Shown: positions 30,105-39,119 of the stretch, one piece after another
How the letters are laid out: every line of letters starts with the position of its first letter
Numbering within the stretch: position 1 is the stretch's first letter
Source of the DNA: Fidelibacterota bacterium
Lineage (GTDB): Bacteria; Pseudomonadota; Alphaproteobacteria; Rhodospirillales; Rhodospirillaceae
Reading direction: 5' to 3'
Assembly: GCA_947475295.1 (NCBI GenBank)
Contig: CANJLF010000005.1
Coordinates: 1 to 64,000, forward strand
DNA: 64,000 nucleotides
The notes under the pieces: generated by a model
What the model was told of the DNA's origin: nothing
The model's database searches: none
Seen by the model: only the letters and a program-made list of their open reading frames with translations
Program-made: the position numbers and the translations under genes

Positions 30105-31184
30105 CTAGGCCGAGGGGAGGAATCCGACGGTCTTATAGGCTTCCGCTAGCACCGGCCCGGCGATGGCCTTGGCCTTCTCGGCGCCGCGCTTTAAGGCTCG
30201 GTCGATCTCCTCCGGGTCGTCCATAAGCCGCTTCATCTCGGCATTGATCGGCCCCAACACCGCCACGGCGGTTTCCGTGAGCTTGGCCTTGAACTGGCTG
30301 AACTGCTGGCCGGCCTGTTCGGCGACCGCCTGTTCCAGGGTCTGGCCGGTGAGCGCCGCATAAATATTAAGTAGGTTGGCGGCCTCGGCGCGGCCCTCCA
30401 GGCCCGCCACCGACTCGGGCAGCGGATTGGGGTCGGTCGTGGCTTTCCTGATCTTCTGCGCGATCGAATCCGCATCGTCGGTCATGTAGATCACCGCGTA
30501 ATCGGAACCGCCGTCGGATTTTGACATCTTCTTGGTGCCGTCGCGCAAGGACATCACGCGCGTGCCCGCGCCCTGAATCACAGGCTCCGGCAGCACGAAC
30601 AAATTCGTGGCATAGTCGTGATTGAACTTCTGAGCGATATCGCGGGTTAACTCGACGTGCTGCTTCTGATCCTCGCCCACGGGAACATGCGTTGCCTTGT
30701 AGAGCAGGATGTCGGCGGCCATGAGATTGGGATAGACGTAAAGCCCCGCCGATGCGGCTTCGCGGTTCTTGCCGGCCTTGTCCTTGAACTGAGTCATGCG
30801 GTTGAGCCAGCCCAGGCGCGCGACGCAGTTGAATACCCAAGCCAGCTCGGCATGAGCCGGCACATGGCTTTGCACGAACAACGCCGCCTGCGCGGGATCT
30901 ATACCGGCGGCGATATAGCCCGCCGCCACTTCGCGCGTGGCGCGCGTCAACTCCGCTGGTTCGATTTTCTCCGCCGTAATGGCATGCAGATCGACAACGC
31001 AGAACAGACACTCGAAATTATTCTGCATCGCCACCCAATTGCGGATAGCGCCAAGATAATTGCCGAGGTGAAGATTGCCGGTGGGCTTGATGCCCGAGAG
31101 GATGCGACCTTGATTGCCCGCCGGCGAAGGCCGGCTATCTTTTGAAGGCGCGCCTTCGCGCGCCGGCGGTGTGGACCCGCTCAT
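30105..31184 (-). CDS. trpS: Tryptophanyl-tRNA synthetase with N-terminal in-frame insertion
   Basis: This 359-residue class I synthetase charges tRNA-Trp. The HIGH-like motif is HLGN (in [15 protein letters not shown]) and the KMSKS motif is present as KMSKSDGG. It is the last gene of a glnD-murJ-trpS series. The family normally starts a few residues before [11 protein letters not shown]; here about 18 residues ([19 protein letters not shown]) come from a 52-bp palindromic element at 31118-31169. Starting downstream of the element is not possible at an in-frame ATG near the family start, so the insertion is probably translated. Confidence 0.96.
31118..31169 (+). repeat. 52-bp palindromic element inside trpS
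   Basis: An imperfect palindrome with ends CCGCCGGCG and CGCCGGCGG. It contains two internal hairpins, one with a GAAG loop between GCCGGC arms and one with a CTTC loop between GGCGCGC and GCGCGCC. It matches the reverse complement of 37471-37522 in mutS at 47 of 52 positions by hand alignment. It codes for residues 6-23 of TrpS. Confidence 0.85.

Positions 31185-36299: not shown

Positions 36300-39119
<2,820 letters not shown>

Follow-up and report, generated by a model that had tools for sequence, protein, structure and literature searches.

The palindromic stretch near the start of trpS in the genome analysed here is probably one copy of a dispersed, non-autonomous and untagged family of REP-like repeats, and members of this family entered genes, among them essential ones such as trpS, mutS and dnaG, in frame in several separate events. 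Judged by sequence comparison, the residues that the stretch adds to TrpS are a real insertion. The family occurs with tens of copies in several genomes of one genus of freshwater alphaproteobacteria. In the following, the window is the whole stretch of DNA that was analysed, 64,000 nucleotides long; G000 denotes its own genome, other G numbers are the genomes of relatives, and L numbers are loci.

The element in trpS and its copy in mutS

The features to which the text refers are the following.

31118 to 31169, plus strand: whole element as initially reported, including the 9-bp complementary ends; in trpS, in the orientation opposite to the gene
31120 to 31135, plus strand: hairpin 1, GCCGGC-GAAG-GCCGGC, based on the fold and on compensatory changes in relatives
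31136 to 31146, plus strand: AT-rich spacer of 11 bases, based on the parsing of copies
31147 to 31164, plus strand: hairpin 2, GGCGCGC-CTTC-GCGCGCC, closing a 45-base core whose ends are uncertain by a few bases; based on the 15-codon net difference from the TrpS of G018
30105 to 31184, minus strand: trpS (tryptophan--tRNA ligase, PF00579), host gene; the insert lies between MSGSTP and GRILSG
37471 to 37522, minus strand: second copy, in mutS, in the orientation of the gene, based on the match of the 52-mer; core at 37476 to 37520
36300 to 39119, minus strand: mutS, host gene; the insert lies within the stretch matched by Pfam MutS_IV

A preliminary description of this DNA had read the 52 bases as an imperfect palindrome with complementary 9-bp ends and two internal hairpins, which agrees with the sequence at 31118-31169; the ends read CCGCCGGCG and CGCCGGCGG. 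It had also matched the 52-mer by hand to mutS, and we reproduced this match at 37471-37522 on the minus strand with 47 of 52 identical positions. The next-best place in an ungapped scan of the window reaches only 34/52 and overlaps the same mutS copy read the other way. The suggested search of the genome and its relatives returned the mutS match with an E-value of 3.7e-14 in the 2.7-Mb genome (3.8e-14 within the window), together with many copies in sister genomes, and a chance match was rejected on these grounds. Within its own genome, the trpS and mutS copies are the only close pair, and a covariance model added 13 further diverged loci (E < 1e-3).

When folded as single-stranded DNA with its flanks, the trpS copy is more stable than most shuffled sequences on both strands: z is -3.08 for the plus strand, where 1 of 200 shuffles did as well, and -2.66 for the minus strand, where 2 of 200 did. 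The copy in mutS folds less well (z -1.48; 17 of 200), and the best fold of the plus strand of the trpS copy is one long hairpin rather than two.

Anatomy of the family

The common core consists of a GC-rich hairpin, an AT-rich spacer of about 11 bases (25% G+C) and a second GC-rich hairpin. In 66 aligned copies the two stems are paired in 94% and 98% of the cells, and 7 of the 12 stem pairs show changes on both sides. For the whole structure, including the loops and a weak middle helix, the observed measures were reached by 0 or 1 of 500 shuffles, and sliding the partners against each other lowers pairing from 87% to 26-51%. The loops are GAAG/CTTC in 42 of the 66 copies. A pairing between these loops was considered as well; they are complementary in 93-97% of cells, yet no pair changed on both sides, so this contact is unproven. 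The middle AT-rich helix is paired in only 61% of cells.

Of the four genic events for which empty sites are known, all but the L004 copy split into 16 + 11 + 18 = 45 bases; L004 comes to 44, owing to one changed stem base. For other genic copies the total is 44-49 bases, and among the 85 copies that parsed it is mostly 43-46; the remaining 19 of 104 copies have no clean two-hairpin parse and are absent from the flank and tag counts given below. Some copies form arrays with steps of 41-42 bp. A known RNA family was rejected for the element, as a search of five loci (20,697 bases) against Rfam 15 yielded only two tRNAs at the gathering score. A second two-hairpin subfamily, with other stems and with GGAAGG and GTTTACC-like loops, was seen in G000 (contigs C8, C1, C3, C14, C11, C18 and C19; L263-L275).

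In-frame insertions and empty sites

The 52-mer lies in frame within the trpS open reading frame (30105-31184, minus strand). The alignment of TrpS across sister species proposed in the preliminary description gave a clear pattern of presence and absence. Among 18 genus genomes in which the TrpS N-terminus was read, three carry residues of the element and 15 are without the two-hairpin element. G000 and G007 share the site and a near-identical insert, and in G008 the insert sits slightly further on, with its near relatives G004 and G013 empty. In the trpS tree the carriers do not form one clade and G000 and G007 are not sisters; their shared site and insert thus require transfer, precise loss or repeated insertion at one site. 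In mutS, read in 16 genomes (G011, G001 and G015 were left out), the insert is present in G000 alone and the other 15 are empty, including G018, which has the closest MutS (92% identical). The dnaG gene, also read in 16 genomes, carries an insert in G009 alone; in G010 it could not be read, and no match was obtained in G018 and G005.

The net gain is 15 codons in each of these comparisons: trpS of G000 with that of G018, trpS of G008 with that of G004, mutS with each of the seven aligned relatives, and dnaG of G009 with that of G017. An in-frame addition before GRILSG had been described and is present, but the estimate of about 18 residues was too high when compared with the nearest empty relative. 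With other relatives as the reference, trpS is longer by 13-14 codons, because the length of the linker itself varies. The stretch from the trpS start to GRILSG contains no ATG, GTG or TTG, so that translation of the insert is expected. One of the 15 genomes without the two-hairpin element, G012, has a trpS linker (L014) that exceeds the one in G002 by 9 residues and holds a GCGCGC-GACA-GCGCGC palindrome before GRIFSG. This palindrome may be what is left of a single hairpin, in which case the linker would have been hit repeatedly. A structure model of MutS, built with 8 sequences and of low confidence (mean pLDDT 39.7), was set aside.

Distribution across genomes

Covariance-model matches at E <= 0.01 were obtained in all 19 genomes of the genus. 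The highest counts among the matches listed were 79 in G006, 72 in G008, 70 in G017, 55 each in G009 and G012, and 43 in G002, where at most 150 candidates per genome were scored and both strands of one site were counted. Two of these metagenome-assembled genomes (MAGs), G009 and G006, contain identical element stretches (L101/L124 and L107/L128), which are probably contigs that were binned twice. At the order level, matches at E <= 1e-6 were found in 27 of 297 genomes, eight of them in the own genus, and in 10 of 111 genera; most of the displayed loci outside the genus show two hairpins, and L286 and L289 are clipped. At the class level, the only match at E <= 1e-8 among 385 genomes was the own genome.

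The named records of a contig scan were largely MAGs called Rhodospirillaceae; others were titled Candidatus Marinimicrobia or Caenispirillum bisanense, which we take to be loose labels. Hits in Mycobacterium, Roseomonas, Rhodobacteraceae, Lysobacterales, Cephaloticoccus, a Gammaproteobacterium and Rhodospirillales MAG-106 had no paired stems on visual inspection and were disregarded. A hit in Parvularcula sp. (L223, 6970-7010), another alphaproteobacterial lineage, has two hairpins on the same plan. Carriage by phages or plasmids was rejected, as a 60-mer had no match to phages and plasmids at E 0.001 and the exact pattern was not matched in viral contigs.

Placement relative to genes

Placement was scored for 104 copies in 83 sequences, comprising the window, 80 stretches picked for having matches and two trpS loci, with crude gene calls from a codon-usage caller trained on the window. 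Before collapsing, the calls were 89 intergenic copies, 12 genic and 3 partly genic. After arrays had been merged and two mirrored contigs (L124, L128) dropped, 84 loci remained, of which 70 are intergenic, 12 genic and 2 partial, in sequences of which 85% is called coding. Genic copies are thus a minority, as in REP families. The 13 further loci of the own genome divide into 8 intergenic, 3 genic and 2 partial. Intergenic copies lie between convergent (29), tandem (30) or divergent genes (6) or at contig edges (5); adjacent genes in these loci, taken together, form 61 convergent, 190 tandem and 51 divergent pairs. Where a gene 3' end adjoins an intergenic copy, it is at most 60 bp away in 44 of 59 cases (median 34). 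The L157 copy sits inside a terminator-like stem that is followed by T's.

Many copies are nested in a wider palindrome. The two flanks of one copy complement each other better than they complement the flanks of other copies (mean 4.44 versus 3.88; 59 de-duplicated copies; 0 of 500 re-pairings), and a permissive text pattern places 34 of 73 copies at an AAAAGTGG..CCGGTTTTC palindrome. The 73 copies in this count and in the tag count below are those left of the 104 without arrays, unparsed copies and L124/L128. When the flanks of L136 are joined, they match 109 plasmid records, with Rhizobium (69) and Sphingobium (14) predominating, and 31 of these matches cover at least 80% of the query. An Allorhizobium plasmid record holds the palindrome without the core, i.e. 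an empty form, which indicates that, at L136 at least, the core entered a wider repeat that was already present. The alphaproteobacterial palindrome AAAAGTGGGAACCGGTTTTC is found on rhizobial and sphingomonad plasmids. It is intergenic and occupies the same places as the core, but it is the target site of many cores and not the core itself. The window has no copy of the wider palindrome, and the latter, as typed, was not found in the literature searched (mostly without subscription papers). REPs have been described as insertion targets (PMC1525189).

Genic hosts and reading frame

According to Pfam, the hosts within the genus are TrpS, MutS, DnaG, a SpoU methylase, ribosomal L29 (at the C-terminus), PPDK (between a YdaS-like part and PPDK), a penicillin-binding transpeptidase and a response regulator; the open reading frames are uncertain for SRAP (119 aa; matched in Pfam, with none in NCBIfam) and gamma-glutamyltranspeptidase. 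Empty relatives were compared for TrpS, MutS and DnaG. Hosts outside the genus are PheS (L288), two IS66 transposases (L291, L300) and a TIGR04283 glycosyltransferase (L285). The pheS palindrome at L288, from another family of the order (G215), is in frame and encodes an AREGAQS..PTG peptide like that of trpS. The IS66 genes of L291 and L300 (G297, G271) carry an in-frame two-hairpin palindrome at the same place, and a mobile gene of this kind could spread it. At L119 (1821-4004), a YdaS-like helix-turn-helix and pyruvate phosphate dikinase share one open frame; the element lies close to the point where the two meet, and the repeat may have mediated a fusion.

In 10 of the 11 scorable genic copies, in both orientations, a GAA codon starts at GAAG (L094 differs; L168 was unscorable), and this is not the sole open phase in intergenic copies. 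When the trpS insert of G000 and G007 is counted once, 7 of 11 separate genic sites in the genus are in trpS (two sites), mutS, dnaG, the SRAP-domain gene, the SpoU rRNA methylase and ribosomal L29. It is therefore conceivable, albeit doubtful, that the element enters, or is kept in, genes for replication, repair and translation by preference, and in one reading frame. In another family pheS is hit, and the same bias is reported for tagged REPs and RPEs (passages of PMC3733652); against such a preference stand the few sites, the uncertainty of some open reading frames, and the fact that inserts are easiest to recognise in conserved housekeeping genes. If true, such genes may be a target of hairpin DNA at large, e.g. 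via exposed single strands, and the common GAA phase would reflect selection on the peptide.

Transposase genes

Y1_Tnp genes are present in 18 of the 19 genus genomes. None of 10 Y1-transposase loci examined carries the element within about 1.5 kb, and the transposase's own palindromes (CGTACCWGGTACG) differ, such that mobilisation by the resident Y1 transposase is not supported; action in trans is possible. The own RAYT-like Y1 gene (L254, 1410-2186; G000 contig C11) scores 72.5 bits against the NCBIfam REP-associated model, below its 80-bit cut-off, and is flanked by CGTACCTGGTACG palindromes that recur on C11. The CGTACCTGGTACG pattern occurs in 8 of 19 genus genomes, often on the contig of the Y1 gene, and could represent a separate repeat family with its own enzyme.

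Relation to known palindromic repeats

In the broad sense, the family conforms to REPs: many hairpin copies, mostly extragenic, near gene 3' ends. REPs are described as mostly intergenic, between convergent or same-direction genes, near 3' ends, and in arrays and dimers, and intragenic REPs are known from DNA-repair and tRNA-synthetase genes (passages of PMC3733652). With GTAG and CGTC REPs the element hence shares hairpin repeats, placement, arrays and a minority of in-frame copies, including those in repair and tRNA-synthetase genes (PMC3733652, in part). It differs in lacking foot tags, in its fixed pair of unlike hairpins and in that no transposase gene was found with it. Within 6 bases of any of the four hairpin feet, GTAG or CTAC occurs in 0 of 73 copies, and all four feet of the 73 copies together yield 2 CGTC and 2 GACG; by these tags, the family falls in neither the GTAG nor the CGTC superfamily.

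REPINs are likewise proposed to replicate as a pair of inverted hairpin-forming repeats, and they form tandem arrays, but they pair like REPs over 71-110 bp beside RAYT genes (passages of PMC3116915), whereas the element joins two unlike hairpins in a core of about 45 bp, and no RAYT link was found for it; no Y1 gene among the 10 loci is flanked by the repeat, as it would be in a REPIN/RAYT system. RPEs of Rickettsia are also palindromic DNA found in frame in unrelated genes, to which they add a peptide, but they are about 150 bp long with nearly half in open reading frames (11 of 12 in a further set; passages of PMC10969869), a share not seen here (12 genic and 2 partial of 84 loci, about 45 bp); this distinction is by description, not by sequence. 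The comparison with RPEs made at the outset therefore stands as far as a dispersed, in-frame element outside Rickettsia is concerned, but it does not fit the mostly intergenic placement, and intragenic REPs are a precedent besides RPEs. PMC12306157 and PMC5082802 were also consulted. The hairpin sequences, as typed, were not found in the literature searched (mostly without subscription papers). The suggestion of an undescribed family in another alphaproteobacterial lineage is consistent with this, with the qualification that the family is kin to known REPs: it adds to them a new two-hairpin family without tags, from a lineage of freshwater alphaproteobacteria that has been little studied, and as a kind of element it is not new.

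Alternative explanations and possible mechanism

GC-rich, self-complementary sequence inflates short matches, many of which (9-14 bases) exist in the window, and the 52-mer match could in principle be such a resemblance of coding sequence, or the residues could be kept in every relative. The genome-wide E-value, the many copies in sister genomes and the empty sites in 15 of 18 TrpS and 15 of 16 MutS make this extremely improbable. A coding-specialised, RPE-like element, which spreads by in-frame insertion with selection on the frame or the peptide, would account for the genic position of both close own-genome copies and for the GAA phase, shared although other phases are open in intergenic copies. 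It is nonetheless unlikely, because 70 of 84 loci, and 8 of the 13 further loci in the own genome, are intergenic, and many intergenic spacers hold stop codons in some frames. A miniature inverted-repeat element (MITE), derived from a DDE insertion sequence but non-autonomous, and having terminal repeats and a target duplication, would likewise be short, dispersed and variably present, with complementary ends such as the 9-bp ends seen here. We consider this quite unlikely: no target duplication shared by the three insertion sites (trpS, mutS and dnaG) could be defined, the ends being ambiguous by a few bases, and no autonomous partner was seen, Y1 transposases being the only class searched.

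The preferred reading, an untagged REP-like family, has its own difficulties. No mobilising enzyme is linked to the element (10 of 10 Y1 loci are without it), the REP tags are missing, and neutral tolerance alone does not predict the GAA phase. Under this REP-like reading, the element would move as single-stranded hairpin DNA through an enzyme supplied in trans, as suggested by the behaviour of REPs and by the lack of a consistent target duplication. It would insert without such a duplication and favour GC-rich palindromic targets. Selection would purge most coding insertions, and the survivors would keep the frame, occupy tolerant linkers and add a hydrophilic peptide without a needed function. 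By analogy with REPs, intergenic copies may form hairpins at RNA 3' ends and play the role proposed there.

Concluding remarks

Tools that look at proteins only would take the inserted residues for ordinary linkers. The 15-codon insertions with their empty sites and the nested copies open to comparison how palindromes without a transposase of their own move and choose their targets.
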